Shown here piece by piece: positions 13,683-36,979 of a stretch of 64,000 bases of DNA (position 1 is its first letter; each line of letters begins with the position of its first letter). The stretch is from Diplolepis rosae (taxonomy: Eukaryota > Arthropoda > Insecta > Hymenoptera > Diplolepididae): contig JAPYXD010000484.1 in assembly GCA_030998225.1 (NCBI GenBank), forward strand, positions 4,030,001-4,094,000, read 5' to 3'. The notes under the pieces were generated by a model, which saw nothing but the letters and a program-made list of their open reading frames with translations, did not search any database and was not told the DNA's origin. The translations under genes were made by a program, and so were the position numbers.

Positions 13683-14040
13683 CTTGAAGTTGATGCCAAA
13701 CTAACAACTGTAAACGAAATTACGCGCAATTTGTTTGTAAAGCAAGCTTAGAGTAACAGCTAACAAATGCCAGAAGAAAAAGATCATGACATTGAAAGAA
13801 GCTATTTAAAAAAATGGTCAAAGACATCTATATTTGAAATCAGCAATTGCTTCTGGGACAACCCAATATACGACCGCTTGATAATTAAAATAATGATTTT
13901 AACAAATTTTCCAGAGAAGACAGGAATGCGTTACATTTTTCTGCATTTCTGTCTTCTCTGAAAAGTTTATTCAAATTATTATTTTATTAATAAAGTGTTG
14001 TATGTAATTAGTGACGTCAGACTCTACCACACGGCCTTAA

Positions 14041-14351: not shown

Positions 14352-14366
14352 TTCCTTGGTAAATTT

Positions 14367-15394
14367 TTTTGTAATAGTTAATTTGGCATGGGGTCAGTTT
14401 TGATACGGATTTATTTTTTTAATTAAGTGATAGAACACATAAAAAATACAAAAGGCAAACGTTTCGGCCACAAATGGGGGCCCTCTTCAGTGCCAATTAG
14501 CTTAATAGTAACCTTTAAATATTTATTAACTAAGACATGCAACTTAATAATTATTGTATTTTTTGTTTTTTTGTTTTTTTCTTTGCTTATTGATATTAGA
14601 AAAAGATAGAGTAAACATGCGGAAAGACTTATGGGTAAGCGAGTTCCTAGGTGTGAAGGAACCAGACCGTTCCAAAAACTGTTCCAACGAGTAATCCTCT
14701 CCCACAGGAACCGTGAAAAATGCGACCGCGGAACACACTCTCTCAAGGGCACATATATAAACACGATTATTTCACCAAAGAAAGAAACAACACGATGGAG
14801 AATATAACGTGGATCCTTGGTAAAGCACGCACAGCAAATCACACACATTCACGAGCACCAGAAGTAAAGGACACTGAAGTTAAAACAATAAGAACGATGT
14901 AATTGGTACGGAAAAATTTTTATTTTGTATTTTCTCCGAAGCCGCAGAGATGACAGACGAAAGTAAGTCCACCACTCTGCCACATGGCTAAAAGAAAACT
15001 GATTTGGGAAGAAGTCGTATTTAGGAAGACTAGTGTTCAGAGTTTGACGTGTATAGAAAGCATTCTCCAGATAGGTCAGGTTCCAACACCAAGGGTTATA
15101 CACAGTAAAACCTTATTTTAATGTCCCCGGCACTTGAGATTATTATATGCTCAAGCGTCCGACAAAAGCAAAGACCCACCACATGTTCGAAAAACTCTGT
15201 AAAGAAAGGCACTCACTACGGTCCCGACGTCGTAAAAATTGTACACATTTCTGTGGATATAGAAAGTAAAATGCAACTAAAGTGGAAATTCACGAAAAAT
15301 TAAATTCCTGGTTTTTCGAAACCTCTGATTCTTAATAAATGGAACCCGGAAAAATACAATATTAAGTTTATAAGTATGATGTCCGAGTTTTTCA
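14367..15394 (-). repeat. PLE terminal segment, left (3' end in sense)
   Basis: This unique-sequence end of the element is repeated inverted at 35850-36877 and is translationally identical wherever frames exist. It carries the hammerhead motif (14454-14494, minus) and AATAAA on the minus strand at 14410-14415, about 45 nt before the end, where seven A residues (minus sense) abut the target duplication. It therefore looks like the true 3' terminus of the element RNA. A 141-codon frame (14423-14848) runs through the ribozyme motif and shows no protein family features; I do not call it a gene. Confidence 0.75.
14454..14494 (-). ncRNA. Hammerhead-ribozyme-like motif, left arm
   Basis: This is the mirror copy of 36750-36790, on the minus strand and sense with the full-length RT ORF, 3' of the satellite. 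Order: stem I GGCA, core CTGAAGA, stem II loop of 18 nt, GAAA, a minimal ACGT stem III, U17, stem I UGCC. Predicted self-cleavage lies between 14458 and 14457. Confidence 0.65.
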
Positions 15395-18300
15395 GATTAT
15401 AAGACTGTTGTAAAGTGGCAAAATATTACGAGAGTTATTCGAACTCTGACTTAAATAGAGTGGCCAATTAATACAGTAGCACTACGGATTCTAAGACTGA
15501 TAAAAAATGGCCAAGTAATGCGCGAGCACTTCGGACTCTAATTCTGAGTAAGGTGGCCAAGTAATGCGCGAGCACATCAGACTCTGATTCTGAGTAAGGT
15601 GGCCAAGTAATGCGCGAGTTCAATGGACGTCAGGACTGATATAAATGCAAAAATAGCCGCGAAATACGCGAGATCAAACGAAGTCTGACCTAAATAAGGA
15701 GGCAAAGTAATGCGCGAATTCTTAGGAGTACAGAATTTTTATATAAAGTGGCCAAGTAATTCGCGAGATCAATGGACGTCAGGACTGATATAAATGCACA
15801 AAAAGCCGCGTACTACGCGAGATCAAACAAAGTCTGACCTAAATAAGGTGGCAAAGTAATGAGCGAGCTCTTCGGACTCAGATTTTCAGTAAGGTGGCCA
15901 AGTAATGCGCGAGTTCAATGGACGTCAGGACTGATATAAATGCCAAAATAGCCTCGTAATACGCGAGATCAAACGAAGTCTGACCTAAATAAGGAGGCAA
16001 AGTAATGCGCGAATTCTTAGTACAGGATTTTTATATAAAGTGGCCAAGTAATGCGCGAGCTCTTCGGACTCTGGCTTAAAATTATGTGGCCAAGTAATTC
16101 GCGAGTTCAATGGACGTCAGGACTGATATAAATGCAAAAATAGCCGCGTAATACGCGAGATCAAACGAAGTCTGACCTAAATAAGGAGGCAAAGTAATGC
16201 GCGAATTCTTAGTACAGGATTTTTATATAAAGTGGCCAAGTAATGCGCGAGCTCTTCGGACTCTGGCTTAAAATTATGTGGCCAAGTAATTCGCGAGTTC
16301 AATGGACGTCAGGACTGATATAAATACAAAAATAGCCGCGTAATACGCAGTTTAACGAAGTCTAACCTGAAAAGAGTGGCCAAGTAATGCACGAATTTTT
16401 AGGGTTATAAGAATTTTTATAAAGTGGCCAAAAAATAATAATTAACACGTAGGCTCCTTAGACTATGACCTGAATAAGGCGGCCAAGTAATGCGCGAATT
16501 CTTAGTACAGGATTTTTATATAAAGTGGCCAAGTAATTCGCGAGTTCAATGGACGTCAGGACTGATATAAATGCAAAAATAGCCGCGTAATACGCGAGAT
16601 CAAACGAAATCTGACCTAAATAAGGTGGCAAAATAATGCGCGAATTCTTAGGACAGGATTTTTATATAAAGTGGCCAAGTAATGCGCGAGCTCTTCGGAC
16701 TCTGGCTTAAAATTATGTGGCCAAGTAATGAGCGAATTCTTAGTACAGAATTTTTATATATAAAGTGGCCAAGTAATGCGCGAGTTCAATGGACGTCAGG
16801 ACTGTTATAAATGCAAAAATAGCCGCGTAATACGCGAGATCAAACGAAGTCTGACCTAAATAAGGAGGCAAAGTAATGCGCGAATTCTTAGGAGTACAGA
16901 ATTTTTATATAAAGTAGCCAAGTAATGCGCGAGCTCTTCGGACTCTGGCTTAAAATTATGTGGCCAAGTAATGCGCGAGTTCAATGGACGTCAGGACTGA
17001 TATAAATACAAAAATGGCCGCGTAATACGGGAGTTGAACGAAGTCTGATCTGAAAAGAGTGGCCAAGTAATGCGCGAATTCTTAGGGGTATAAGAATTTT
17101 TATAAAGTGGCCAAAAAATAATAATTAACACTTAGGGTCCTTAGACTCTGACCTGAATAAAGCGGCCAAGTAATGTGCGAGCCCTTAGGACTCTGATTTA
17201 CAGTAAGGTGGCCAAGTAATGCGCGAGTTCAATGGACGTCAGGACTGATATAAATGCAAAAATAGCCGCGTAATTCGCGAGATCAAACGAAATCTGACCT
17301 AAATAAGGTGGCAAAGTAATGCGCGAATTCTTAGTACAGAATTTTTATATAAAGTGGCCAAGTAATGCGCGAGCTCTTCGGACTCTGGCTTAAAATTATG
17401 TGGCCAAGTAATTCGCGAGATCAATGGACGTCAGGACTGATATAAATGCACAAAAAGCCGCGTAATACGCCAGATCAAACAAAGTCTGACCTAAATAAGG
17501 AAGCAAAGTAATGCGCGAATTCTTAGGAGTACAGAATTTTTATGTAAAGTAGCCAAGTAATGCGCGAGCTCTTCGGACTCTGGCTTAAAATTATGTGGCC
17601 AAGTAATTCGCGAGATCAATGGACGTCAGGACTGATATAAATACAAAAATAGGCGCGTAATACGAGAGTTGAACACAGTCTGACCTGAAAAGAGTGGCCA
17701 AGTAATGCGCGAATTCTTAGGGTTATAAGAATTTTTATAAAGTGGCCAAAAAATAATAATTAACACTTAGGGTCCTTAGACTCTGACCTGAATAAAGCGG
17801 CCAAGTAATGCGCGAGCACTTCGGACTCAGATTTTCAGTAAGGTGGCCAAGTAATGCGCGAGTTCAATGGACGTCAGGACTGATATAAATGCACAATTAG
17901 CCGCGTAATACGCGAGATCAAACGAAGTCTGACCTAAATAAGGAGGCAAAATAATGCGCGAATTCTTAGGACAGGATTTTTATATAAAGCGGCCAAGTAA
18001 TGCGCGAGCTCTTCGGACTCTGGCTCAAAATTATGTGGCCAAGTAATGAGCGAATTCTTAGTACAGAATTTTTATATATAAAGTGGCCAAGTAATGCGCG
18101 AGTTCAATGGACGTCAGGACTGTTATAAATACAAAAATAGGCGCGTAATACGCGAGTTGAACGCAGTCTGACCTGAAAAGAGTGGCCAAGTAATGCGCGA
18201 ATTCTTAGGGGTATAAGAATTTTTATATAAAGTGGCCAAAAAATAATAATTAACATTTAGGGTCCTTAGACTCTGACCTGAATAATGCGGCCAAGTAATG

Positions 18301-21300
18301 CGCGAGCACTTCGGACTCAGATTTTCAGTAAGGTGGCCAATTAATGCGCGAGTTCAATGGAGTTCAGGACTGATATAAATGCAAAATAGCCGCGTAATAC
18401 GCGAGATCAAACAATGTCTGACCTAAATAAGGTGGAAAAGTAATGCGCGAATTCTTAGTACGGGATTTTTATATAAAGTGGCCAAGTAATGCGCGAGCTC
18501 TTCGGAATCTGGCTTAAAATTATGTGGCCAAGTAATGCGCGAGTACAATGGACGTCAGGACTGATATAAATACAAAAATAGCCGCGTAATACGCGAGTTG
18601 AACAAAGTCTGATCTGAAAAGAGTGGCCAAGTAATGCGCGAGCTCTTCGGACTCAGATTTTCAGTAAGGTGGCCAAGTAATGCGCGAGTTCAATGGACGT
18701 CAGGACTGATATAAATGCCAAAATAGCCTCGTAATACGCGAGATCAAACGAAGTCTGACCTAAATAAGGAGGCAAAGAAATGCGCGAATTCTTAGGAGTA
18801 CAGAATTTTTATATAAAGTGGCCAAGTAATGCGCGAGCTCTTCGGACTCTGGCTTAAAATTATGTGGCCAAGTAATGCGCGAGTTCAATGGACGTCAGGA
18901 CTGATATAAATACAAAAATAGCCGCGTAATACGCGAGTTGAACGAAGTCTAATCTGAAAAGAGTGGCCAAGTAATGCGCGAATTCTTAGGGGTATAAGAA
19001 TTTTTATAAAGTGGCCAAAAAATAATAATTAACACTTAGGGTCCTTAGACTCTGACCTGAATAAAGCGGCCAAGTAATGCGCGAGCACTTCGGACTCTGA
19101 TTTACAGTAAGGTGGCCAAGTAATGCGCGAGTTCAATGGACGTCAGGACTGATATAAATGCAAAAATAGCCGCGTAATACGCGAGATCAAACGAAATCTC
19201 ACCTAAATAAGGTGGCAAAGTAATGCGCGAATTCTTAGTACAGAATTTTAATATAAAGTGGCCGAGTAATGCGCGAGCTCTTCGGAATCTGGCTTAAAAT
19301 TATGTGGCCAAGTAATGCGCGAGTACAATGGACGTCAGGACTGATATAAATACAAAAATAGCCGCGTAATACGCGAGTTGAACAAAGTCTGATCTGAAAA
19401 GAGTGGCCAAGTAATGCGCGAGCTCTTCGGACTCAGATTTTCAGTAAGGTGGCCAAGTAATGCGCGAGTTCAATGGACGTCAGGACTGATATAAATGCCA
19501 AAATAGCCTCGTAATACGCGAGATCAAACGAAGTCTGACCTAAATAAGGAGGCAAAGAAATGCGCGAATTCTTAGGAGTACAGAATTTTTATATAAAGTG
19601 GCCAAGTAATGCGCGAGCTCTTCGGACTCTGGCTTAAAATTATGTGGCCAAGTAATGCGCGAGTTCAATGGACGTCAGGACTGATATAAATACAAAAATA
19701 GCCGCGTAATACGCGAGTTGAACGAAGTCTAATCTGAAAAGAGTGGCCAAGTAATGCGCGAATTCTTAGGGGTATAAGAATTTTTATAAAGTGGCCAAAA
19801 AATAATAATTAACACTTAGGGTCCTTAGACTCTGACCTGAATAAAGCGGCCAAGTAATGCGCGAGCACTTCGGACTCTGATTTACAGTAAGGTGGCCAAG
19901 TAATGCGCGAGTTCAATGGACGTCAGGACTGATATAAATGCAAAAAGAGCCGCGTAATACGCGAGATCAAACGAAATCTCACCTAAATAAGGTGGCAAAG
20001 TAATGCGCGAATTCTTAGTACAGAATTTTAATATAAAGTGGCCGAGTAATGCGCGAGCTCTTCGGAATCTGGCTTAAAATTATGTGGCCAAGTAATGCGC
20101 GAGTACAATGGACGTCAGGACTGATATAAATACAAAAATAGCCGCGTAATACGCGAGTTGAACAAAGTCTGATCTGAAAAGAGTGGCCAAGTAATGCGCG
20201 AGCTCTTCGGACTCAGATTTTCAGTAAGGTGGCCAAGTAATGCGCGAGTTCAATGGACGTCAGGACTGACATAAATGCCAAAATAGCCTCGTAATACGCG
20301 AGATCAAACGAAGTCTGACCTAAATAAGGAGGCAAAGTAATGCGCGAATTCTTAGTACAGGATTTTTATATAAAGTGGCCAAGTAATGCGCGAGCTCTTC
20401 GGACTCTGGCTTAAAATTATGTGGCCAAGTAATTCGCGAGTTCAATGGACGTCAGGACTGATATAAATGCAAAAATAGCCGCGTAATACGCGAGATCAAA
20501 CGAAGTCTGACCTAAATAAGGAGGCAAAGTAATGCGCGAATTCTTAGGAGTACAGAATTTTTATATAAAGTAGCCAAGTAATGCGCGAGCTCTTCGGACT
20601 CTGGCTTAAAATTATGTGGCCAAGTAATGAGCGAATTCTTAGTACAGAATTTTTATATATAAAGTGGCCAAGTAATGCGCGAGTTCAATGGACGTCAGGA
20701 CTGTTATAAATGCAAAAATAGCCGCGTAATACGCGAGATCAAACGAAGTCTGACCTAAATAAGGTGGCAAAATAATGCGCGAATTCTTAGGACAGGATTT
20801 TTATATAAAGTGGCCAAGTAATGCGCGAGCTCTTCGGACTCTGGCTTAAAATTATGTGGCCAAGTAATGAGCGAATTCTTAGTACAGAATTTTTATATAT
20901 AAAGTGGCCAAGTAATGCGCGAGTTCAATGGACGTCAGGACTGTTAAAAAAGCAAAAAAATCAGCGTAATACGCGAGATCAAACTAAGTCTGACCTAAAT
21001 AAGGAGGCAAAGTAATGCGCGAATTCTTAGGAGTACAGAATTTTTATATAAAGTAGCCAAGTAATGCGCGAGCTCTTCGGACTCTGGCTTAAAATTATGT
21101 GGCCAAGTAATGCGCGAGTTCAATGGACGTCAGGACTGATATAAATACAAAAATGGCCGCGTAATACGGGAGTTGAACGAAGTCTGATCTGAAAAGAGTG
21201 GCCAAGTAATGCGCGAATTCTTAGGGGTATAAGAATTTTTATAAAGTGGCCAAAAAATAATAATTAACACTTAGGGTCCTTAGACTCTGACCTGAATAAA

Positions 21301-24300
21301 GCGGCCAAGTAATGCGCGAGCACTTCGGACTCTGATTTACAGTAAGGTGGCCAAGTAATGCGCGAGTTCAATGGACGTCAGGACTGATATAAATGCAAAA
21401 ATAGCCGCGTAATTCGCGAGATCAAACGAAATCTGACCTAAATAAGGTGGCAAAGTAATGCGCGAATTCTTAGTACAGAATTTTTATATAAAGTGGCCAA
21501 GTAATGCGCGAGCTCTTCGGACTCTGGCTTAAAATTATGTGGCCAAGTAATTCGCGAGATCAATGGACGTCAGGACTGATATAAATGCACAAAAAGCCGC
21601 GTAATACGCCAGATCAAACAAAGTCTGACCTAAATAAGGAAGCAAAGTAATGCGCGAATTCTTAGGAGTACAGAATTTTTATGTAAAGTAGCCAAGTAAT
21701 GCGCGAGCTCTTCGGACTCTGGCTTAAAATTATGTGGCCAAGTAATTCGCGAGATCAATGGACGTCAGGACTGATATAAATACAAAAATAGGCGCGTAAT
21801 ACGAGAGTTGAACACAGTCTGACCTGAAAAGAGTGGCCAAGTAATGCGCGAATTCTTAGGGTTATAAGAATTTTTATAAAGTGGCCAAAAAATAATAATT
21901 AACACTTAGGGTCCTTAGACTCTGACCTGAATAAAGCGGCCAAGTAATGCGCGAGCACTTCGGACTCAGATTTTCAGTAAGGTGGCCAAGTAATGCGCGA
22001 GTTCAATGGACGTCAGGACTGATATAAATGCACAATTAGCCGCGTAATACGCGAGATCAAACGAAGTCTGACCTAAATAAGGAGGCAAAATAATGCGCGA
22101 ATTCTTAGGACAGGATTTTTATATAAAGTGGCCAAGTAATGCGCGAGCTCTTCGGACTCTGGCTCAAAATTATGTGGCCAAGTAATGAGCGAATTCTTAG
22201 TACAGAATTTTTATATATAAAGTGGCCAAGTAATGCGCGAGTTCAATGGACGTCAGGACTGTTATAAATACAAAAATAGGCGCGTAATACGCGAGTTGAA
22301 CGCAGTCTGACCTGAAAAGAGTGGCCAAGTAATGCGCGAATTCTTAGGGGTATAAGAATTTTTATATAAAGTGGCCAAAAAATAATAATTAACATTTAGG
22401 GTCCTTAGACTCTGACCTGAATAATGCGGCCAAGTAATGCGCGAGCACTTCGGACTCAGATTTTCAGTAAGGTGGCCAATTAATGCGCGAGTTCAATGGA
22501 GTTCAGGACTGATATAAATGCAAAAAAAGCCGCGTAATACGCGAGATCAAACAATGTCTGACCTAAATAAGGTGGAAAAGTAATGCGCGAATTCTTAGTA
22601 CGGGATTTTTATATAAAGTGGCCAAGTAATGCGCGAGCTCTTCGGAATCTGGCTTAAAATTATGTGGCCAAGTAATGCGCGAGTACAATGGACGTCAGGA
22701 CTGATATAAATACAAAAATAGCCGCGTAATACGCGAGTTGAACAAAGTCTGATCTGAAAAGAGTGGCCAAGTAATGCGCGAGCTCTTCGGACTCAGATTT
22801 TCAGTAAGGTGGCCAAGTAATGCGCGAGTTCAATGGACGTCAGGACTGATATAAATGCCAAAATAGCCTCGTAATACGCGAGATCAAACGAAGTCTGACC
22901 TAAATAAGGAGGCAAAGAAATGCGCGAATTCTTAGGAGTACAGAATTTTTATATAAAGTGGCCAAGTAATGCGCGAGCTCTTCGGACTCTGGCTTAAAAT
23001 TATGTGGCCAAGTAATGCGCGAGTTCAATGGACGTCAGGACTGATATAAATACAAAAATAGCCGCGTAATACGCGAGTTGAACGAAGTCTAATCTGAAAA
23101 GAGTGGCCAAGTAATGCGCGAATTCTTAGGGGTATAAGAATTTTTATAAAGTGGCCAAAAAATAATAATTAACACTTAGGGTCCTTAGACTCTGACCTGA
23201 ATAAAGCGGCCAAGTAATGCGCGAGCACTTCGGACTCTGATTTACAGTAAGGTGGCCAAGTAATGCGCGAGTTCAATGGACGTCAGGACTGATATAAATG
23301 CAAAAATAGCCGCGTAATACGCGAGATCAAACGAAATCTCACCTAAATAAGGTGGCAAAGTAATGCGCGAATTCTTAGTACAGAATTTTAATATAAAGTG
23401 GCCGAGTAATGCGCGAGCTCTTCGGAATCTGGCTTAAAATTATGTGGCCAAGTAATGCGCGAGTACAATGGACGTCAGGACTGATATAAATACAAAAATA
23501 GCCGCGTAATACGCGAGTTGAACAAAGTCTGATCTGAAAAGAGTGGCCAAGTAATGCGCGAGCTCTTCGGACTCAGATTTTCAGTAAGGTGGCCAAGTAA
23601 TGCGCGAGTTCAATGGACGTCAGGACTGATATAAATGCCAAAATAGCCTCGTAATACGCGAGATCAAACGAAGTCTGACCTAAATAAGGAGGCAAAGAAA
23701 TGCGCGAATTCTTAGGAGTACAGAATTTTTATATAAAGTGGCCAAGTAATGCGCGAGCTCTTCGGACTCTGGCTTAAAATTATGTGGCCAAGTAATGCGC
23801 GAGTTCAATGGACGTCAGGACTGATATAAATACAAAAATAGCCGCGTAATACGCGAGTTGAACGAAGTCTAATCTGAAAAGAGTGGCCAAGTAATGCGCG
23901 AATTCTTAGGGGTATAAGAATTTTTATAAAGTGGCCAAAAAATAATAATTAACACTTAGGGTCCTTAGACTCTGACCTGAATAAAGCGGCCAAGTAATGC
24001 GCGAGCACTTCGGACTCTGATTTACAGTAAGGTGGCCAAGTAATGCGCGAGTTCAATGGACGTCAGGACTGATATAAATGCAAAAAGAGCCGCGTAATAC
24101 GCGAGATCAAACGAAATCTCACCTAAATAAGGTGGCAAAGTAATGCGCGAATTCTTAGTACAGAATTTTAATATAAAGTGGCCGAGTAATGCGCGAGCTC
24201 TTCGGAATCTGGCTTAAAATTATGTGGCCAAGTAATGCGCGAGTACAATGGACGTCAGGACTGATATAAATACAAAAATAGCCGCGTAATACGCGAGTTG

Positions 24301-27160
24301 AACAAAGTCTGATCTGAAAAGAGTGGCCAAGTAATGCGCGAGCTCTTCGGACTCAGATTTTCAGTAAGGTGGCCAAGTAATGCGCGAGTTCAATGGACGT
24401 CAGGACTGACATAAATGCCAAAATAGCCTCGTAATACGCGAGATCAAACGAAGTCTGACCTAAATAAGGAGGCAAAGTAATGCGCGAATTCTTAGTACAG
24501 GATTTTTATATAAAGTGGCCAAGTAATGCGCGAGCTCTTCGGACTCTGGCTTAAAATTATGTGGCCAAGTAATTCGCGAGTTCAATGGACGTCAGGACTG
24601 ATATAAATGCAAAAATAGCCGCGTAATACGCGAGATCAAACGAAGTCTGACCTAAATAAGGAGGCAAAGTAATGCGCGAATTCTTAGGAGTACAGAATTT
24701 TTATATAAAGTAGCCAAGTAATGCGCGAGCTCTTCGGACTCTGGCTTAAAATTATGTGGCCAAGTAATGCGCGAGTTCAATGGACGTCAGGACTGATATA
24801 AATACAAAAATGGCCGCGTAATACGCGAGTTGAACGAAGTCTTATCTGAAAAGAGTGGCCAAGTAATGCGCGAATTCTTAGGGGTATAAGAATTTTTATA
24901 AAGTGGCCAAAAAATAATAATTAACACTTAGGGTCCTTAGACTCTGACCTGAATAAAGCGGCCAAGTAATGCGCGAGCACTTCGGACTCTGATTTACAGT
25001 AAGGTGGCCAAGTAATGCGCGAGTTCAATGGACGTCAGGACTGATATAAATGCAAAAATAGCCGCGTAATTCGCGAGATCAAACGAAATCTGACCTAAAT
25101 AAGGTGGCAAAGTAATGCGCGAATTCTTAGTACAGAATTTTTATATAAAGTGGCCAAGTAATGCGCGAGCTCTTCGGACTCTGGCTTAAAATTATGTGGC
25201 CAAGTAATGCGCGAGTTCAATGGACGTCAGGACTGATATAAATGCACAAAAAGCCGCGTAATACGCGAGAGCAAACAAAGTCTGACCTAAATAAGGTGGC
25301 AAATTAATGCGCGAATTCTTAGTACAGGATTTTTATATAAACTGGCCAAGTAATGCGCGAGCTCTTCGGACTCTGGCATAAAATTATGTGGCCAAGTAAT
25401 TCGCGAGTACAATGGACGTCAGGACTGATATAAATACAAAAATAGCCGCGTAATACGCGAGTTGAACAAAGTCTGATCTGAAAAGAGTGGCCAAGTAATG
25501 CGCGAGCTCTTCGGACTCAGATTTTCAGTAAGGTGGCCAAGTAATGCGCGAGTTCAATGGACGTCAGGACTGATATAAATGCCAAAATAGCCTCGTAATA
25601 CGCGAGATCAAACGAAGTCTGACCTAAATAAGGAGGCAAAGAAATGCGCGAATTCTTAGTACAGGATTTTTATATAAAGTGGCCAAGTAATGCGCGAGCT
25701 CTTCGGACTCTGGCTTAAAATTATGTGGCCAAGTAATTCGCGAGTTCAATGGACGTCAGGACTGATATAAATGCAAAAATAGCCGCGTAATACGCGAGAT
25801 CAAACGAAGTCTGACCTAAATAAGGAGGCAAAGTAATGCGCGAATTCTTAGGAGTACAGAATTTTTATATAAAGTAGCCAAGTAATGCGCGAGCTCTTCG
25901 GACTCTGGCTTAAAATTATGTGGCCAAGTAATGCGCGAGTTCAATGGACGTCAGGACTGATATAAATACAAAAATGGCCGCGTAATACGGGAGTTGAACG
26001 AAGTCTGATCTGAAAAGAGTGGCCAAGTAATGCGCGAATTCTTAGGGGTATAAGAATTTTTATAAAGTGGCCAAAAAATAATAATTAACACTTAGGGTCC
26101 TTAGACTCTGACCTGAATAAAGCGGCCAAGTAATGCGCGAGCACTTCGGACTCTGATTTACAGTAAGGTGGCCAAGTAATGCGCGAGTTCAATGGACGTC
26201 AGGACTGATATAAATGCAAAAATAGCCGCGTAATTCGCGAGATCAAACGAAATCTGACCTAAATAAGGTGGCAAAGTAATGCGCGAATTCTTAGTACAGA
26301 ATTTTTATATAAAGTGGCCAAGTAATGCGCGAGCTCTTCGGACTCTGGCTTAAAATTATGTGGCCAAGTAATGCGCGAGTTCAATGGACGTCAGGACTGA
26401 TATAAATGCACAAAAAGCCGCGTAATACGCGAGAGCAAACAAAGTCTGACCTAAATAAGGTGGCAAATTAATGCGCGAATTCTTAGTACAGGATTTTTAT
26501 ATAAACTGGCCAAGTAATGCGCGAGCTCTTCGGACTCTGGCTTAAAATTATGTGGCCAAGTAATGCGCGAGTTCAATGGACGTCAGGACTAATATAAGTA
26601 CAAAAATAGCCGATTAATACGCAAGTTGAACGAAGTCTGATCTGAAAAGAGTGGCCAAGTAATGCGCGAATTCTTAGGGGTATAAGAATTTTTATAAAGT
26701 GGTCAAAAAATAATAATTAACACTTAGGGTCCTTAGACTCTGACCTGAATAAAGCGGCCAAGTAATGCGCGAGCACTTCGGACTCTGATTTACAGTAAGG
26801 TGGCCAAGTTATGCGCGAGTTCAATGGACGTCAGGACTGATATCAATGCAAAAATAGCCGCGTAATACGCGAGATCAAACAATGTCTGACCTAAATAAGG
26901 TGGCAAAGTAATGCGCGAATTCTTAGTACAGAATTTTTATATAAAGTGGCCAAGTAATGCGCGAGCTCTTCGGACTCTGGCTTAAAATTATGTGGCCAAA
27001 TAATGCGCAAAGTTAAATGGACGTCAGGACTGATATAAATACAAAAAATAGTCGCGTAATACGCGAGTTCAACGAAACCTGACCTAAATAAGGTGGCCAA
27101 AAATGCGCGAGTTACAACGAAATCTGACCCAGACAAAGTGGCCAGATGTAAGAACATAAA
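15395..27160. repeat. Satellite array, left arm (about 240 monomers)
   Basis: Monomers of about 44-56 bp share a core GGCCAAGTAATGCGCGAG followed by one of several variable halves. Four types alternate to give a block of about 192 bp (for example TCTTCGGACTCTGGCTT at 16061 and 16253). Blocks form a 780-bp higher-order unit; identical 60-nt stretches start at 18601, 19381 and 20161, and again at 22741, 23521 and 24301. About 4 kb (16.62-20.63 kb) is further duplicated at an offset of about 4,140 bp (20.76-24.77 kb). Near both ends monomers are more diverged, as in satellites evolving by unequal exchange. The array lies inside the PLE, downstream of the RT stop codon. Confidence 0.9.
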
Positions 27161-27214
27161 CCGTGAAGGGACGACTGAAACACGGTGGGTCCCAATTTCT
27201 CATTTCACATTTTT
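27161..27214 (-). other. RT 3' leader into satellite
   Basis: Short unique sequence between the RT stop codon and the first satellite monomers. It is repeated inverted at 30114-30167, showing that the array is physically joined to the ORF in both copies. Confidence 0.7.
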
Positions 27215-29485
27215 TTATGACCCTTTTTTAAGTATAGTGTTGTAAATCTTAGAAAGGTTTTCTATGTCGGTTCTAAGATTCACCGCATCGTTCGTACCTG
27301 CAATGTGACACATTTCCAACAGCAACCTTTTTTTGTAGTTTTTTTCGTTAGCTAAGATTTTTGTTCTATCAAAATCGAAGAAGTGATCTCTTTCAATCGT
27401 ATGTTTTGTTAGCGCGTTTTGTTTATTGGGGCTTTCTCTAATGTTGTTTTTATGTTCTTTTAGTCTGTTTTTAAGGAATCGTTTCGTTTGACCTATATAG
27501 ACAGCCTTGCAGTCATTCCCTTTGCACGGAACGCTGTAGACGACGTTAGAAGATTGATCTTTGGGTATTTTGTCCTTGGTGGGTATGAAGATCGTTTTTA
27601 GGTTTTTTTGGTTTTTGTACGCAGTGTTTATGTTGTAGCTATGTAAGATTCCTGATATTCTCTCTGACAGAATTTCAACGTAAGGGATACTAATGAAGGG
27701 TTTGTTTTCTGTGTTTATGTCGGCCTGATTGTTACCTAATCGTGTCTTATGTTCAAGGGTAAGAAGTCTTAGATTTATAATCTCTTGCGTGAACTGTTGT
27801 GGATAGTCATTTTCTAGTAGTGTATCTATAATTAGTTTAAGGTTGTTTTTGTGAAATTCTTTATCTGAAAGTAGAATTGCCCTGTCAACTAAGTTGTTTA
27901 CAACACTTTTCTTGTATCTGAGGGGGTGATGGGAATTAAAGTTAAGGTATCTTCCAGACCAAGTCGGTTTCCTATACCAATTGAAAGAAAGTTTTTGATT
28001 CTGTTTCCTAGTCATAGTGACATCTAGAAAATTAATAGCACCATTTATCTCTTTTTCTAGGGTGAATTCAATATTGAGGGAATTGTTGTTGAAGATTTGC
28101 AAAATGTGGTTCACTTGTGTGTCAGGAACCACGATGAGAATATCGTCTACGTATCGAAAGTAAACAGGTACTTCAAAATCAAGATTAGAGAGCCTGTCTT
28201 TTTCTAGGTCATCCATTACTATATCTGCAAGGACGGGGGAGAAAGGAGAACCCATTGGTAATCCACGTTTTTGAAAATAGGTGGTGCCATCGAAATTAAA
28301 GTCTGTGCTATCCAAGCATAATCGCAACCCTTCTTCATATTCCTTCCATGGCAATGATACTTTGCGACGAATCTCTTCCCATCTATTTTTTACAGCAGAG
28401 ATGGCTGCTTCCTTGGGTATATTTGTGAAAAGGGACACTACATCCAAGGAGGCGAGAACAAAATTATCAGGGACACTAACATTTTTAAGTTTCTGGACTA
28501 GTTCGAAACTGTTAATGATTTTTGATTTTGGTGGCGTGGTGTTTTTAGATATGGTTGTGCTAAAGAAGGATGCTAGATTGTAGGTAGGACTGCCTACATA
28601 AGATACAATGGGTCTAATGGGGTTGCCTTCTTTATGGATTTTGGGTAATCCGTAGAATCTGGAGGGAACAGCATTAGAAGACTTTAAATCCTTAGCTAAC
28701 AGGTTGTTGATTAATTTTTTGTTTTCCCATGTTTTGACTAGACAATTTACTTTATTTTGTATTTTGGTTGTAGTGTCCTTGGAGCGGACTTTGTATGTGT
28801 TTTCATCATTTAGAAGGTTGAATACTTTCTCGTTGTAATCTGTTCGCGTCAAGGCTACTGTGGTGTTACCTTTGTCTGCCCTAGTAAAAACTATGTCCGG
28901 GTTATTTTTTACGAAATCCCTAGCTTCTTTAATTTCTTTAACAGGTTGTACGAATTTAGATTTGTGTTCATTCCCATTCTTCTTAAAATTATTAACGACG
29001 TTAGCAACTTTTAAGCGCAATTCATCTTGAGATTCAGGATCAATTTTATTAATGTTAGATTCGATGTCCGCGATTATATTATATGTAGGAATTTCCCGTT
29101 TTTTTATAATAACACCGAAATTTATTCCTAAGCTAGCTATTTTTGCGACATTCTCTGGAATTTGGTTTCCTGTTAAATTTTTGAACCACTTTTGGTTAAG
29201 TTTACTGTTGGAAACGGTCTTTTTATTGCAATCAAGAGACCTTATCAGTAAGTCGAGTTTCTTTTTGCATTTAAATTTGCTTTCTTCAAAACGGCGGGAG
29301 ACTTTCCCGGATTCGAGCTCAAAAAATCTGTCGGATATGTGGTTTGGAAAAATAGCAACTATTCTACTTTGAAAATACATAATTTGATTCACAAGGTACT
29401 TTAAATGTGCACATATGTCACAAATTTCAAGATTCAAGATGGACCTAAGAAAAGTATTATGCAGGTTTGAGAATTTGTTACTCAT
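27215..29485 (-). CDS. Penelope-like reverse transcriptase with GIY-YIG endonuclease
   Basis: Intact 756-aa ORF, near the usual PLE length of about 800 aa. It would nick the target with the GIY-YIG nuclease and prime reverse transcription of the element RNA there. Visible order: basic N-terminal region; ADKG near residue 203-206; fingers motif YGLPKIHK (278-285); catalytic SLDVVSLFTNIP with D348; GLPMGSP (408-414); YVDD with D447/D448; NFLDV (485-489); WYRKPTWSGRYLNF thumb region (503-516). After a linker come Cys654 and Cys659, VYIGQT (662-667), R674, KEH (676-678) and Glu724 in LLLEMCHI, the expected GIY-YIG catalytic positions. No frameshift, stop or missing catalytic residue is seen. ATG at 29485 is chosen because the sequence upstream is already the inverted truncated copy. 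The stop is followed within about 60 bp by satellite. The ORF is probably functional or very recently so. Confidence 0.95.
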   Translation of the reverse strand: MSNKFSNLHNTFLRSILNLEICDICAHLKYLVNQIMYFQSRIVAIFPNHISDRFFELESGKVSRRFEESKFKCKKKLDLLIRSLDCNKKTVSNSKLNQKWFKNLTGNQIPENVAKIASLGINFGVIIKKREIPTYNIIADIESNINKIDPESQDELRLKVANVVNNFKKNGNEHKSKFVQPVKEIKEARDFVKNNPDIVFTRADKGNTTVALTRTDYNEKVFNLLNDENTYKVRSKDTTTKIQNKVNCLVKTWENKKLINNLLAKDLKSSNAVPSRFYGLPKIHKEGNPIRPIVSYVGSPTYNLASFFSTTISKNTTPPKSKIINSFELVQKLKNVSVPDNFVLASLDVVSLFTNIPKEAAISAVKNRWEEIRRKVSLPWKEYEEGLRLCLDSTDFNFDGTTYFQKRGLPMGSPFSPVLADIVMDDLEKDRLSNLDFEVPVYFRYVDDILIVVPDTQVNHILQIFNNNSLNIEFTLEKEINGAINFLDVTMTRKQNQKLSFNWYRKPTWSGRYLNFNSHHPLRYKKSVVNNLVDRAILLSDKEFHKNNLKLIIDTLLENDYPQQFTQEIINLRLLTLEHKTRLGNNQADINTENKPFISIPYVEILSERISGILHSYNINTAYKNQKNLKTIFIPTKDKIPKDQSSNVVYSVPCKGNDCKAVYIGQTKRFLKNRLKEHKNNIRESPNKQNALTKHTIERDHFFDFDRTKILANEKNYKKRLLLEMCHIAGTNDAVNLRTDIENLSKIYNTILKKGS

Positions 29486-29497
29486 ACTTCTAGAATT
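29486..29497. other. Head-to-head junction of the two PLE copies
   Basis: Only about 12 bp separate the initiation codon of the full-length ORF (minus) from the first base of homology in the truncated copy (plus). No promoter-sized spacer exists, so any promoter for the full-length ORF must lie in the inverted copy or within the ORF. Confidence 0.7.
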
Positions 29498-30113
29498 AAT
29501 AGATACACTACTAGAAAATGACTATCCACAACAGTTCACGCAAGAGATTATAAATCTAAGACTTCTTACCCTTGAACATAAGACACGATTAGATAACAAT
29601 CAGGCCGACATAAACACAGAAAACAAACCCTTCATTAGTATCCCTTACGTTGAAATTCTGTCAGAGAGAATATCAGGAATCTTACATAGCTACAACATAA
29701 ACACTGCGTACAAAAACCAAAAAAACCTAAAAACGATCTTCATACCCACCAAGGACAAAATACCCAAAGATCAATCTTCTAACGTCGTCTACAGCGTTCC
29801 GTGCAAAGGGAATGACTGCAAGGCTGTCTATATAGGTCAAACGAAACGATTCCTTAAAAACAGACTAAAAGAACATAAAAACAACATTAGAGAAAGCCCC
29901 AATAAACAAAACGCGCTAACAAAACATACGATTGAAAGAGATCACTTCTTCGATTTTGATAGAACAAAAATCTTAGCTAACGAAAAAAACTACAAAAAAA
30001 GGTTGCTGTTGGAAATGTGTCACATTGCAGGTACGAACGATGCGGTGAATCTTAGAACCGACATAGAAAACCTTTCTAAGATTTACAACAATATACTTAA
30101 AAAAGGGTCATAA
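29498..30113 (+). pseudogene. 5'-truncated inverted PLE copy (linker plus GIY-YIG)
   Basis: Homologous to the last roughly 205 codons of the full-length RT (from IDTLLEND to the end), on the opposite strand. It keeps the complete Cys-linker, VYIGQT and LLLEMCHI motifs but none of the reverse transcriptase motifs. Only two amino-acid differences were seen from the full-length copy (Asp for Gly in TRLGNN; Asn for Thr near the C-terminus). An open frame of 232 codons starts at 29415, but its first 27 codons are antisense to the N-terminus of the other copy. It is the inner part of an inverted pseudo-LTR; whether a stand-alone GIY-YIG protein is ever made is unknown. Confidence 0.9.
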
Positions 30114-30167
30114 AAAAATGTGAAATGAGAAATTGGGACCCACCGTGTTTCAGTCGTCCCTTCACGG

Positions 30168-33100
30168 TTTATGTTCTTACATCTGGCCACTTTGTCTGGG
30201 TCAGATTTCGTTGTAACTCGCGCATTTTTGGCCACCTTATTTAGGTCAGGTTTCGTTGAACTCGCGTATTACGCGACTATTTTTTGTATTTATATCAGTC
30301 CTGACGTCCATTTAACTTTGCGCATTATTTGGCCACATAATTTTAAGCCAGAGTCCGAAGAGCTCGCGCATTACTTGGCCACTTTATATAAAAATTCTGT
30401 ACTAAGAATTCGCGCATTACTTTGCCACCTTATTTAGGTCAGACATTGTTTGATCTCGCGTATTACGCGGCTATTTTTGCATTGATATCAGTCCTGACGT
30501 CCATTGAACTCGCGCATTACTTGGCCACCTTACTGTAAATCAGAGTCCGAAGTGCTCGCGCATTACTTGGCCGCTTTATTCAGGTCAGAGTCTAAGGACC
30601 CTAAGTGTTAATTATTATTTTTTGGCCACTTTATAAAAATTCTTATACCCCTAAGAATTCGCGCATTACTTGGCCACTCTTTTCAGATAAGACTTCGTTC
30701 AACTACCTTATTACGCGGCCATTTTTGTATTTATATCAGTCCTGACGTCCATTGAACTCGCGCATTACTTGGCCACATAATTTTAAGCCAGAGTCCGAAG
30801 AGCTCGCGCATTACTTGGCTACTTTATATAAAAATTCTGTACTCCTAAGAATTCGCGCATTACTTTGCCTCCTTATTTAGGTCAGACTTCGTTTGATCTC
30901 GCGTATTACGCGGCTATTTTTGCATTTATATCAGTCCTGACGTCCATTGAACTCGCGAATTACTTGGCCACATAATTTTAAGCCAGAGTCCGAAGAGCTC
31001 GCGCATTACTTGGCCACTTTATATAAAAATTCTGTACTAAGAATTCGCGCATTACTTTGCCACCTTATTTAGGTCAGACATTGTTTGATCTCGCGTATTA
31101 CGCGGCTATTTTTGCATTGATATCAGTCCTGACGTCCATTGAACTCGCGCATTACTTGGCCACCTTACTGTAAATCAGAGTCCGAAGTGCTCGCGCATTA
31201 CTTGGCCGCTTTATTCAGGTCAGAGTCTAAGGACCCTAAGTGTTAATTATTATTTTTTGGCCACTTTATAAAAATTCTTATACCCCTAAGAATTCGCGCA
31301 TTACTTGGCCACTCTTTTCAGATCAGACTTCGTTCAACTCCCGTATTACGCGGCCATTTTTGTATTTATATCAGTCCTGACGTCCATTGAACTCGCGCAT
31401 TACTTGGCCACATAATTTTAAGCCAGAGTCCGAAGAGCTCGCGCATTACTTGGCTACTTTATATAAAAATTCTGTACTCCTAAGAATTCGCGCATTACTT
31501 TGCCTCCTTATTTAGGTCAGACTTCGTTTGATCTCGCGTATTACGCGGCTATTTTTGCATTTATATCAGTCCTGACGTCCATTGAACTCGCGAATTACTT
31601 GGCCACATAATTTTAAGCCAGAGTCCGAAGAGCTCGCGCATTACTTGGCCACTTTATATAAAAATTCTGTACTAAGAATTCGCGCATTACTTTGCCTCCT
31701 TATTTAGGTCAGACTTCGTTTGATCTCGCGTATTACGCGGCTATTTTTGCATTTATATCAGTCCTGACGTCCATTGAACTCGCGAATTACTTGGCCACAT
31801 AATTTTAAGCCAGAGTCCGAAGAGCTCGCGCATTACTTGGCCACTTTATATAAAAATCCTGTACTAAGAATTCGCGCATTACTTTGCCTCCTTATTTAGG
31901 TCAGACTTCGTTTGATCTCGCGTATTACGAGGCTATTTTGGCATTTATGTCAGTCCTGACGTCCATTGAACTCGCGCATTACTTGGCCACCTTACTGAAA
32001 ATCTGAGTCCGAAGAGCTCGCGCATTACTTGGCCACTCTTTTCAGATCAGACTTTGTTCAACTCGCGTATTACGCGGCTATTTTTGTATTTATATCAGTC
32101 CTGACGTCCATTGTACTCGCGCATTACTTGGCCACATAATTTTAAGCCAGATTCCGAAGAGCTCGCGCATTACTCGGCCACTTTATATTAAAATTCTGTA
32201 CTAAGAATTCGCGCATTACTTTGCCACCTTATTTAGGTGAGATTTCGTTTGATCTCGCGTATTACGCGGCTATTTTTGCATTTATATCAGTCCTGACGTC
32301 CATTGAACTCGCGCATTACTTGGCCACCTTACTGTAAATCAGAGTCCGAAGTGCTCGCGCATTACTTGGCCGCTTTATTCAGGTCAGAGTCTAAGGACCC
32401 TAAGTGTTAATTATTTCTTTTTGGCCACTTTATAAAAATTCTTATACCCCTAAGAATTCGCGCATTACTTGGCCACTCTTTTCAGATTAGACTTCGTTCA
32501 ACTCGCGTATTACGCGGCTATTTTTGTATTTATATCAGTCCTGACGTCCATTGAACTCGCGCATTACTTGGCCACATAATTTTAAGCCAGAGTCCGAAGA
32601 GCTCGCGCATTACTTGGCCACTTTATATAAAAATTCTGTACTCCTAAGAATTCGCGCATTTCTTTGCCTCCTTATTTAGGTCAGACTTCGTTTGATCTCG
32701 CGTATTACGAGGCTATTTTGGCATTTATATCAGTCCTGACGTCCATTGAACTCGCGCATTACTTGGCCACCTTACTGAAAATCTGAGTCCGAAGAGCTCG
32801 CGCATTACTTGGCCACTCTTTTCAGATCAGACTTTGTTCAACTCGCGTATTACGCGGCTATTTTTGTATTTATATCAGTCCTGACGTCCATTGTACTCGC
32901 GCATTACTTGGCCACATAATTTTAAGCCAGATTCCGAAGAGCTCGCGCATTACTTGGCCACTTTATATAAAAATCCCGTACTAAGAATTCGCGCATTACT
33001 TTTCCACCTTATTTAGGTCAGACATTGTTTGATCTCGCGTATTACGCGGCTTTTTTTGCATTTATATCAGTCCTGAACTCCATTGAACTCGCGCATTAAT

Positions 33101-35850
33101 TGGCCACCTTACTGAAAATCTGAGTCCGAAGTGCTCGCGCATTACTTGGCCGCATTATTCAGGTCAGAGTCTAAGGACCCTAAATGTTAATTATTATTTT
33201 TTGGCCACTTTATATAAAAATTCTTATACCCCTAAGAATTCGCGCATTACTTGGCCACTCTTTTCAGGTCAGACTGCGTTCAACTCGCGTATTACGCGCC
33301 TATTTTTGTATTTATAACAGTCCTGACGTCCATTGAATTCGCGTATTACTTGGCCACTTTATATATAAAAATTCTGTACTAAGAATTCGCTCATTACTTG
33401 GCCACATAATTTTGAGCCAGAGTCCGAAGAGCTCGCGCATTACTTGGCCACTTTATATAAAAATCCTGTCCTAAGAATTCGCGCATTATTTTGCATCCTT
33501 ATTTAGGTCAGATTTCGTTTGATCTCGCGTATTACGCGGCTAATTGTGCATTTATATCAGTCCTGACGTCCATTGAACTCGCGCATTACTTGGCCACCTT
33601 ACTGAAAATCTGAGTCCGAAGTGCTCGCGCATTACTTGGCCGCTTTATTCAGGTCAGAGTCTAAGGACCCTAAGTGTTAATTATTATTTTTTGGCCACTT
33701 TATAAAAATTCTTATAACCCTAAGAATTCGCGCATTACTTGGCCACTCTTTTCAGGTCAGACTGTGTTCAACTCTCGTATTACGCGCCTATTTTTGTATT
33801 TATATCAGTCCTGACGTCCATTGATCTCGCGAATTACTTGGCCACATAATTTTAAGCCAGAGTCCGAAGAGCTCGCGCATTACTTGGCTACTTTACATAA
33901 AAATTCTGTACTCCTAAGAATTCGCGCATTACTTTGCTTCCTTATTTAGGTCAGACTTTGTTTGATCTGGCGTATTACGCGGCTTTTTGTGCATTTATAT
34001 CAGTCCTGACGTCCATTGATCTCGCGAATTACTTGGCCACATAATTTTAAGCCAGAGTCCGAAGAGCTCGCGCATTACTTGGCCACTTTATATAAAAATT
34101 CTGTACTAAGAATTCGCGCATTACTTTGCCACCTTATTTAGGTCAGATTTCGTTTGATCTCGCGAATTACGCGGCTATTTTTGCATTTATATCAGTCCTG
34201 ACGTCCATTGAACTCGCGCATTACTTGGCCACATAACTGTAAATCAGAGTCCTAAGTGCTCGCGAATTACTTGGCCGCTTTATTCAGGTCAGAGTCTAAG
34301 GACCCTAAGTGTTAATTATTATTTTTTGGCCACTTTATAAAAATTCTTATACCCCTAAGAATTCGCGCATTACTTGGCCACTCTTTTCAGATCAGACTTC
34401 GTTCAACTCCCGTATTACGCGGCCATTTTTGTATTTATATCAGTCCTGACGTCCATTGAACTCGCGCATTACTTGGCCACTTTATATATAAAAATTCTGT
34501 ACTAAGAATTCGCTCATTACTTGGCCACATAATTTTAAGCCAGAGTCCGAAGAGCTCGCGCATTACTTGGCCACTTTATATAAAAATCCTGTCCTAAGAA
34601 TTCGCGCATTATTTTGCCACCTTATTTAGGTCAGATTTCGTTTGATCTCGCGTATTACGCGGCTATTTTTGCATTTATATCAGTCCTGACGTCCATTGAA
34701 CTCGCGAATTACTTGGCCACATAATTTTAAGCCAGAGTCCGAAGAGCTCGCGCATTACTTGGCCGCCTTATTCAGGTCATAGTCTAAGGAGCCTACGTGT
34801 TAATTATTATTTTTTGGCCACTTTATAAAAATTCTTATAACCCTAAAAATTCGTGCATTACTTGGCCACTCTTTTCAGGTTAGACTTCGTTAAACTGCGT
34901 ATTACGCGGCTATTTTTGTATTTATATCAGTCCTGACGTCCATTGAACTCGCGAATTACTTGGCCACATAATTTTAAGCCAGAGTCCGAAGAGCTCGCGC
35001 ATTACTTGGCCACTTTATATAAAAATCCTGTACTAAGAATTCGCGCATTACTTTGCCTCCTTATTTAGGTCAGACTTCGTTTGATCTCGCGTAATACGCG
35101 GCTATTTTTGCATTTATATCAGTCCTGACGTCCATTGAATTCGCGAATTACTTGGCCACATAATTTTAAGCCAGAGTCCGAAGAGCTCGCGCATTACTTG
35201 GCCACTTTATATAAAAATCCTGTACTAAGAATTCGCGCATTACTTTGCCTCCTTATTTAGGTCAGACTTCGTTTGATCTCGCGTATTACGAGGCTATTTT
35301 GGCATTTATATCAGTCCTGACGTCCATTGAACTCGCGCATTACTTGGCCACCTTACTGAAAATCTGAGTCCGAAGAGCTCGCTCATTACTTTGCCACCTT
35401 ATTTAGGTCAGACTTTGTTTGATCTCGCGTAGTACGCGGCTTTTTGTGCATTTATATCAGTCCTGACGTCCATTGATCTCGCGAATTACTTGGCCACTTT
35501 ATATATAAAAATCCTGTACTAAGAATTCGCGCATTACTTTGCCTCCTTATTTAGGTCAGACTTCGTTTGATCTCGCGTATTTCGCGGCTATTTTTGCATT
35601 TATATCAGTCCTGACGTCCATTGAACTCGCGCATTACTTGGCCACCTTACTCAGAATCAGAGTCTGATGTGCTCGCGCATTACTTGGCCACCTTACTCAG
35701 AATTAGAGTCCGAAATGCTCGCGCATTACTTGGTCATTTTTTATCAGTCTTAGAATCCGTAGTGCTACTGTATTAATTGGCCACTCTATTTAAGTCAGAG
35801 TTCGAATAACTCTCGTAATATTTTGCCACTTTACAACAGTCTTATAATCT
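30168..35850. repeat. Satellite array, right arm (about 115 monomers)
   Basis: Reverse complement of the left-arm family, with the same monomer types and 192-bp blocks, joined to the truncated copy through the same 54-bp leader. It is 6,084 bp shorter than the left array. The innermost and outermost monomers match left-arm counterparts closely, and the length difference lies in the middle. Small private variants occur (for example TTATTTCTTTTTGG near 32,411). Confidence 0.9.
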
Positions 35851-36877
35851 GAAAAACTCGGACATCATACTTATAAACTTAATATTGTATTTTTCCGTGT
35901 TCCATTTATTAAGAATCAGAGGTTTCGAAAAACCAGGAATTTAATTTTTCGTGAATTTCCACTTTAGTTGCATTTTACTTTCTATATCCACAGAAATGTG
36001 TACAATTTTTACGACGTCGGGACCGTAGTGAGTGCCTTTCTTTACAGAGTTTTTCGAACATGTGGTGGGTCTTTGCTTTTGTCGGACGCTTGAGCATATA
36101 ATAATCTCAAGTGCCGGGGACATTAAAATAAGGTTTTACTGTGTATAACCCTTGGTGTTGGAACCTGACCTATCTGGAGAATGCTTTCTATACACGTCAA
36201 ACTCTGAACACTAGTCTTCCTAAATACGACTTCTTCCCAAATCAGTTTTCTTTTAGCCATGTGGCAGAGTGGTGGACTTACTTTCGTCTGTCATCTCTGC
36301 GGCTTCGGAGAAAATACAAAATAAAAATTTTTCCGTACCAATTACATCGTTCTTATTGTTTTAACTTCAGTGTCCTTTACTTCTGGTGCTCGTGAATGTG
36401 TGTGATTTGCTGTGCGTGCTTTACCAAGGATCCACGTTATATTCTCCATCGTGTTGTTTCTTTCTTTGGTGAAATAATCGTGTTTATATATGTGCCCTTG
36501 AGAGAGTGTGTTCCGCGGTCGCATTTTTCACGGTTCCTGTGGGAGAGGATTACTCGTTGGAACAGTTTTTGGAACGGTCTGGTTCCTTCACACCTAGGAA
36601 CTCGCTTACCCATAAGTCTTTCCGCATGTTTACTCTATCTTTTTCTAATATCAATAAGCAAAGAAAAAAACAAAAAAACAAAAAATACAATAATTATTAA
36701 GTTGCATGTCTTAGTTAATAAATATTTAAAGGTTACTATTAAGCTAATTGGCACTGAAGAGGGCCCCCATTTGTGGCCGAAACGTTTGCCTTTTGTATTT
36801 TTTATGTGTTCTATCACTTAATTAAAAAAATAAATCCGTATCAAAACTGACCCCATGCCAAATTAACTATTACAAAA
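35850..36877 (+). repeat. PLE terminal segment, right
   Basis: Inverted duplicate of 14367-15394. It carries the hammerhead motif in plus orientation (sense to the truncated copy) and AATAAA at 36829-36834, 43 nt before the arm ends at 36877. Identity with the left segment is essentially complete where compared. Confidence 0.75.
36750..36790 (+). ncRNA. Hammerhead-ribozyme-like motif, right arm
   Basis: Layout on the plus strand: GGCA (36750-36753, stem I), CTGAAGA (36754-36760, the CUGANGA core), an 18-nt stem-loop II beginning GGGCC and ending GGCC, GAAA (36779-36782), C-G-T (stem III with no loop of its own), T36786 as the H17 position, then TGCC (36787-36790), which pairs with GGCA. Hammerhead motifs in PLE pseudo-LTRs are established; they often have a tiny stem III and may act as dimers through a self-complementary ACGU. 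Stem II pairing is imperfect next to the core (third pair G-G), so activity is uncertain. Confidence 0.65.
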
Positions 36878-36933
36878 TTATTATTGTGGGTCAATAAAAC
36901 ATTGAACATGTACGGAAACATGTCACGATATAA
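36878..36933. other. 56-nt asymmetric tail of the PLE
   Basis: This sequence lies between the end of the inverted arm and the right copy of the 12-bp direct repeat and has no counterpart at the left end. It contains a small hairpin, ACATGT-ACGGAA-ACATGT. A short one-sided tail next to an inverted pseudo-LTR is a known PLE trait. I found no source for it elsewhere in the window. Confidence 0.6.
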
Positions 36934-36979
36934 TTCCTTGGTAAAATTCAGTGAAACAAGATCGGCATATGTACTGATT

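Follow-up and report, generated by a model that had tools for sequence, protein, structure and literature searches.

A 64,000-nt stretch of the Diplolepis rosae genome (assembly GCA_030998225.1, contig JAPYXD010000484.1, positions 4,030,001 to 4,094,000, forward strand), hereafter the window, contains a 22.6-kb block composed of two head-to-head copies of a Penelope-like retroelement unit, each with part of an open reading frame (ORF), a satellite array and a leader, and bounded by a 12-bp target duplication. The block was interpreted as one retroelement insertion of a satellite-bearing Penelope-like family, which comprises tandem units and inverted insertions derived from two-sided priming and whose satellite is mobile with the element; we give this explanation as a whole, the single insertion included, a probability of roughly 0.8. 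The family appears to have been active recently and may be active still. Inverted copies, tails, short duplications and hammerheads are already familiar from Penelope elements; what is new is that satellite arrays of ~0.8-11.6 kb form part of the unit and move with it, together with a near-strict rule of one tail per insertion. The parts of the window insertion are as follows.

14352..14363: left 12-bp target duplication, TTCCTTGGTAAA
14367..15394, minus strand: leader copy A (unique part of the pseudo-long terminal repeat, pseudo-LTR), tail-less end; 99.9% identical to the right leader, stopping ~30 nt short of the position of the ORF start codon
14454..14494, minus strand: hammerhead ribozyme-like motif, copy A (descriptor match)
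15508..27129, minus strand: satellite array A, 11.6 kb; ~46-bp monomers, higher-order repeats of ~145/192/337 bp
27128..27214, minus strand: post-ORF segment copy A, 87 bp; order kept in 19/19 genomic ORF copies checked
27215..29498, minus strand: reverse transcriptase (RT)/GIY-YIG ORF copy A, truncated at its 5' end within codon 83 of 843
29494..29499: point where the two complementary DNA (cDNA) copies meet head to head, overlap up to 6 nt
29499..30113, plus strand: 3' part of the ORF with the GIY-YIG domain, copy B, 5'-truncated
30114..30200, plus strand: post-ORF segment copy B
30199..35733, plus strand: satellite array B, 5.5 kb
35850..36877, plus strand: leader copy B
36750..36790, plus strand: hammerhead ribozyme-like motif, copy B (descriptor match)
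36878..36933, plus strand: 56-nt tail, equal to the leader end followed by 26 nt from the start of the ORF (ATG at 36908, MYGNMSRY)
36934..36945: right 12-bp target duplication

Structure of the window insertion

The target duplication occurs only at these two places when both strands of the window are searched, and a shared exact match of at least 12 bp between two random 57-bp flank stretches was obtained in 5 of 2000 trials. The left arm seems to hold ~3 additional T beside the duplication, as read off the sequence. The outer inverted arms (14362-15725 and 35519-36882, 1364 nt) are 100% identical in the repeat listing, and a separate alignment counts 5 mismatches. Copies A and B are collinear across 7382 alignment columns with 37 mismatches, and all gaps apart from those of 2-3 nt represent extra satellite in the left arm (A). 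Unique sequence differs at three of ~1,730 sites, namely 1/1028 in the leader and 2/~702 in the ORF end and post-ORF piece. A preliminary description of this DNA had noticed the 12-bp direct repeat at both extremes, the inverted arms ending at 14367 and 36877 and the satellite arrays between ORF and terminus, and all of these were recovered. The one-sided 56-nt tail that it reported is also present; rather than being added sequence, it closes with ATGTACGGAAACATGTCACGATATAA (MYGNMSRY), ends in codon 9 of the ORF and is the leader end plus the ORF start of the next unit, a known signature of Penelope reverse-transcription starts (PMC11167929). The arms, described there as inverted pseudo-LTRs consisting mostly of satellite, are better described as two cDNAs of one unit joined head to head.

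The ORF that had been called intact is 5'-truncated, since tandem genomic copies contain an 843-aa frame and the window copy starts 248 nt into that frame; ORF A is open and lacks the first 82 codons. The tandem frames, two of which lie on contig C359, begin with MYGNMSRYNF. Proteins of 841-843 aa match ORF A at 86% (P0001) and 73% (P0002), and their N-terminus is missing from ORF A. Being leader-less upstream of its truncated ORF, the window copy was probably dead on arrival. Among the 19 ORF loci checked (L002-L020, from 42 matches listed, 40 of 757 candidates having been scored), 14 have an open 843-aa frame; by the same measure L020 has 866 aa, three loci are shorter and one is without a start. 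A reverse transcriptase domain was detected in ORF A and in the 843-aa frame (Pfam RVT_1, E 8.5e-11 in copy A), and a GIY-YIG domain in copy B (E 2.2e-5). A single ORF with reverse transcriptase and C-terminal GIY-YIG is thereby predicted, which, together with the tandem units, the tail and the short target duplications, agrees with the earlier assignment to Penelope-like elements. The closest named proteins are from ants (~36-45% identity), comparison with solved structures gave only weak matches to the RT core, and a search of viral contigs by protein and by satellite 18-mer found nothing useful.

Both window leaders contain GGCACTGAAGAGGGCCCCCATTTGTGGCCGAAACGTTTGCC, which could fold as a minimal hammerhead of type I; its components are GGCA/TGCC as stem I, CTGAAGA, a 4-bp stem II, GAAAC-GTT and a stem III reduced to ACGT. 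We regard this hammerhead-like motif as a candidate minimal ribozyme with predicted cleavage; Penelope elements are known to contain minimal hammerheads that lack helix III (PMC7761336). A descriptor allowing one spare base before stem II matched only the two leaders on both window strands; a first, stricter descriptor had no match in the window, and Rfam models did not report the leader motif even at E<=10. A ribozyme inside the satellite monomer was rejected, as descriptor matches in the window are confined to the leaders, and one ribozyme per monomer, as in hammerhead retrozymes or ribozyme satellites, was not found among the window satellite monomers. Leaders with no other close similarity also contain the exact 41-mer motif (45-47 nt at 100%), an identity level that is partly a product of selection because these copies were picked by exact 41-mer match.

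The satellite as part of the mobile unit

The satellite is part of the element unit and moves with the element, because ORF copies run into satellite after 87 bp at 19/19 loci checked in the 758-Mb assembly that contains the window, and because the same order is repeated in tandem at C359. In these 19 loci, the post-ORF segment is followed by 1.4 kb of which 91-97% is satellite. A leader of nearly full length is present in 17 of them (exceptions L004 and L019), and the 75-89 bp read on the upstream side of its edge are satellite. The ORF 3' junction recurs in 117 genomic copies with <=3 mismatches. On the minus strand of C359, the order is leader, ORF (843 aa), 7.4 kb of satellite, leader, ORF (843 aa), 5.2 kb of satellite and leader; the units measure 11.2 and 9.0 kb, and the excess is satellite. 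ORF spacing at C352 corresponds to units of 5.65/5.84 kb, so that the tandem or partial-tandem units that give Penelope-like elements their pseudo-LTRs are present at both places. A length of 4-6 kb is given as typical for Penelope in PMC6431247; C352 units have 5.7-5.8 kb, the C359 units are not of this compact kind, and size is a typical rather than a defining feature. The preliminary description had proposed that the satellite lies inside the element and moved with it, and had suggested looking for the same order elsewhere; the order of ORF, satellite and leader was found at other genomic loci with different target duplications.

The estimated satellite length between an ORF end and the next leader is 0.8-11.1 kb in 22 of 25 pairs, with a median of 5.2 kb for all 25, and the three larger values (16.8-26.6 kb) probably represent missed leaders. 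The satellite 18-mer core has 59,335 exact occurrences in the genome and a density of 6.1-8.8 per kb in element arrays, from which a satellite total of ~7-10 Mb, ~1% of the assembly, can be extrapolated. The satellite does not occur only as an independent array, though satellite-only arrays also appear to exist: the 28.2-kb contig C2 (L049, L080) consists of satellite, with no leader or ORF, over 1.5 kb at its start and 10 kb at its end, and 18-mer matches reach at least 17.8 kb. One BLAST-based repeat comparison gave almost no matches. The two core repeats closest to the ORF deviate at 5-6 of 18 positions in 8/8 arrays compared, and the leader side is less uniform.

We propose that satellite length shifts fast by block duplication. 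Array A contains a block duplication of 4,140 bp, in which 2242 bp with zero mismatches are followed by 1821 bp with 11, and two further duplications of 1,164 bp and 780 bp. From 1,669 on the ORF side, the arm-to-arm offset rises to 7,753 on the leader side, and this growth of 6,084 bp is the exact sum of the three duplications, which indicates that A gained or B lost these blocks. Arm length differences may have arisen by slippage during cDNA synthesis or by later unequal exchange, both being possible, and a satellite carried by the element could thus alter its length within very young copies.

Ends of the insertions and proposed integration

Twenty-three inverted loci were compared, namely the window, C415 and C352, which were found via the ORF, and 20 outward-facing motif pairs, which are all outward neighbours within 12.5 kb among 100 exact ribozyme-motif places listed (7,810 places in total with <=3 mismatches, other leader types included); the outermost leaders were used for C94 and C84. 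Among the listed places, motif neighbours within this distance comprise 20 outward pairs, 2 inward pairs and 6 tandem pairs, so that 20 of 22 opposite-strand neighbours face outward. Exactly one tailed and one tail-less end were found at 19 of the 23 loci, 17 of which have target duplications of 9-16 bp, and no locus has two tail-less ends. Short target duplications and inverted head-to-head copies, as in other Penelope-like elements, are therefore present at 17/23 loci, and the tail is formed by the leader and ORF start. All 16 tailed ends fetched (of 40 matches listed) stop at ATG+26 to +34, each against a different flank, in a search whose query contained the tail and would have missed ends falling short of it.

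Thirteen of the 19 one-tailed loci carry the window-type leader, one, C73:518k, being an older relative at ~73-86%. Each of the 13 is flanked by a direct duplication of 12-14 bp: TTCCTTGGTAAA, TCTATTTTATCT, ATAATTGTATTT, CCAACAAATAAT, AATTTAAAAAAA, ATTATAAAAATA, ACAATATTGATAAC, TTAAATTGAAAT, ATTAATTATATA, AAAAGTGATAAC, TTTAATAGTATT, ATTGTCATGAGAA and TAAAATATATTAT. Their A+T content is 86%, compared with 65% in the window. In 12/13, the position of the tail-less end relative to the ATG is -22 to -30. Of the 13 insertions, 4 have a left-hand tail and 9 a right-hand one, which makes strand assignment look free. If start sites were chosen independently, at most half of the insertions would be one-tailed, and 13/13 would then have P ~1e-4, a figure that leaves C86 and C28 outside. 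The other six one-tailed loci have other leader types, and four of them have duplications directly adjoining the ends (16, 9, 12 and 14 bp). At C35, one end is tailed and the other leader continues into the ORF; both leaders continue into the ORF at C95, where no true end is reached. Centre junctions measured at five loci (window, C94, C415, C73:937k and C32) have arm overlaps of 0-6 nt. As a separate observation, L054, L057, L059, L052, L056 and L064/L065 represent other Penelope leader types that share the ribozyme-like motif and have one-tailed inverted ends, and satellite was not seen in the five short annotated copies among them (L052, L054, L056, L057 and L059).

The unit order, ends, target duplications, head-to-head order and arm identity are seen directly, and they suggest the following course of integration. 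The unit consists of a leader with the minimal hammerhead-like motif, the 843-aa RT/GIY-YIG ORF, ~0.8-11.6 kb of satellite and a leader. The template RNA, whose transcription and structure are deduced from the unit, would span the ORF with its satellite and leader and continue into the beginning of the following ORF; it could come from tandem units such as C359 or from circular RNA. The element endonuclease would cut an AT-rich target with a stagger of ~12 nt and leave 3' overhangs, a geometry suggested by the direct duplications on both sides, which imply that the overlap was present on each 3' end. As the outer ends coincide with the reverse-transcription start zones, cDNA seems to have been primed from the 3' ends of both target strands, a pattern that fits target-primed reverse transcription from the two cut strands: one cDNA would start from about ORF nt +26 to +28 and the other ~56 nt upstream, at ~-29 from the ATG. 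The two cDNAs would extend upstream through leader and satellite, halt at varied places and be united head to head, presumably by end joining, as the 0-6 nt overlaps at the centre junctions suggest; fill-in would then yield the target duplication.

This course resembles that of PAc, a Poseidon-type element of Anolis carolinensis (PMC11167929), which likewise has an RT with C-terminal GIY-YIG, tandem units and AT-rich targets. Close to its leader/ORF junction, PAc has a hammerhead motif, where the window family has the candidate motif. In vitro, both strands are cut and extended by the purified PAc protein, and reverse transcription begins at either of two neighbouring internal sites of the RNA, which delimit the tail. 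PAc differs in that reverse transcription starts ~111-118 nt into the ORF instead of ~-29 and +26 to +28, and no satellite is mentioned in the abstract or main text of that paper.

Several observations weigh against our explanation. For PAc, no difference in start site between strands was seen in vitro (PMC11167929), whereas in the genomic pattern of the window family each of the two start zones is usually used once per insertion. The tail-less end of C352 lies at ~-39, outside the range of -22 to -30. No clear duplication was found at the one-tailed loci C45 and C40 (L052); C28 has its ends at +34 and +94 and no duplication; and C86 (L055, C86:460001-463600) has tails at both ends, flanks that are palindromic beyond the element and no duplication. 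Satellite length differs between the arms in the three insertions annotated through to the ORF (11.6/5.5, 4.1/1.9 and 1.8/3.0 kb), which is unexpected from one shared template and requires slippage or later change; satellite lengths, known from the assembly alone, may also reflect assembly error. Pfam reported GIY-YIG for copy B only, and neither for ORF A (E<=0.001) nor for the 843-aa frame (E<=1); homologs with a GIY-YIG domain align across the corresponding stretch, and P0002, which is collinear and of the 841-843 aa class, has both Pfam domains.

Inverted arms could also be produced by snap-back, in which the 3' end of a single cDNA folds back and primes its own copying. Antisense-template self-priming has been proposed for head-to-head Penelope copies of Adineta vaga in PMC3846280, and the shortness of the centre-junction overlaps is in its favour. 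The copy must then be the arm that reaches less far upstream, yet at the window, C94 and C73:937k that arm is tailed and its supposed template is tail-less, so that snap-back of one cDNA is contradicted at three loci; the narrow placement of tail-less ends in 12/13 insertions also counts against it, and we reject it as very unlikely. A palindrome created by later inverted duplication, by recombination of two elements or by assembly fold-back is very unlikely: satellite arms of 99% identity are hard to assemble and the C86 flanks are indeed palindromic, but unequal arms, a one-sided tail, a direct duplication and non-palindromic flanks recur at independent loci.

Insertion of a Penelope element into or beside a pre-existing array, with the satellite as host DNA, would accommodate the apparently satellite-only C2 and the abundance of the 18-mer in the genome. 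Four fully annotated insertions, however, keep their target duplications outside the satellite and in different flanks, the ORF-satellite and satellite-leader junctions recur at 19/19 and 17/19 loci, the ORF-nearest core repeats deviate alike in 8/8 arrays, and no leader and ORF copy without satellite was seen among the 19 loci. Host DNA at the target was rejected on account of the outside duplications and the recurrent junctions, and we hold this explanation to be highly improbable. Use of two different RNA templates for the two arms was not supported by the comparison of arm differences: 3/3 window differences in unique sequence are private to one arm (23 ORF rows and 26 leader rows), those in the C415 leader arms are also private, and for C94 one other row shares a single base and a 3-nt end gap. 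Two RNAs of identical sequence may have served as templates.

The steps after second-strand synthesis and repair in Penelope insertion have yet to be validated (PMC11167929). Young, cleanly bounded and nearly always one-tailed insertions offer a genomic footprint that separates two-sided priming from self-priming, and a retroelement whose unit normally includes a long satellite would provide a direct route for scattering satellite arrays into unique sequence. We see an even chance that Penelope integration is coupled and asymmetric, each RNA start zone being used once per insertion and one per strand, so that the cDNAs are not independent, and that in this family kilobase satellite arrays are routinely carried along. 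If this is true, the element is a vehicle that seeds a satellite amounting to ~1% of the genome into unique DNA.

Related elements and neighbouring features

Plant Tat-lineage LTR retrotransposons integrate by an integrase mechanism. The tandem repeats in their 3' untranslated region are similar to the present satellite in being variable repeats of an untranslated part that can form satellites, in elements of another class, plant LTR retrotransposons (PMC10794571). Tetris foldback elements and the TIR-220 satellite of Drosophila virilis also have inverted arms, with internal tandem repeats that form longer satellite-like arrays as well; according to PMC4079207, Tetris is an apparently non-autonomous DNA transposon without RT and with another mechanism. 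A foldback DNA transposon, with terminal inverted repeats, no RT and mobilisation by a transposase, does not describe the window family, whose unit contains an RT ORF and whose ends match RT start zones.

The Pen families of Adineta vaga have inverted pseudo-LTRs, target duplications of 9-10 bp, ORFs of 838-842 aa, a head-to-head order and an optional 31-bp tail on one inverted pseudo-LTR; their pseudo-LTRs are ~200 bp and the head-to-head order is ascribed to self-priming (PMC3846280), and the word "satellite" is absent from the main text of that paper. Terminons of rotifer telomeres share the Penelope RT clade and large size and contain hammerhead motifs, but are large through extra ORFs and attached to telomeric repeats (PMC6431247), whereas the window family is large through satellite and has GIY-YIG. 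Penelope-related satellites are mentioned in PMC12692304 and PMC11955569. Our literature survey, which covered titles and abstract openings of the papers listed and left most subscription papers outside, found no Penelope unit with a long satellite array and no count of one-tailed insertions.

An Rfam scan of the window at gathering and permissive thresholds returned only tRNA-like matches and two weak matches outside the element. Just outside the element, a 53-nt inverted repeat with a 13-nt loop (13877-13995) has weak sub-threshold Rfam matches. The three tRNA-like matches (39405-39476, 40528-40599 and 61578-61650) have related flanks and inverted neighbours and look like a tRNA-derived family of short interspersed elements. 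Two collinear stretches ~12 kb apart (47205-47872 and 59205-59807), 71-88% alike, are possibly an old duplicated gene or element, and a mariner-like transposase fragment with HTH_48 and Transposase_1 in one frame lies at 48328-48978 on the plus strand.

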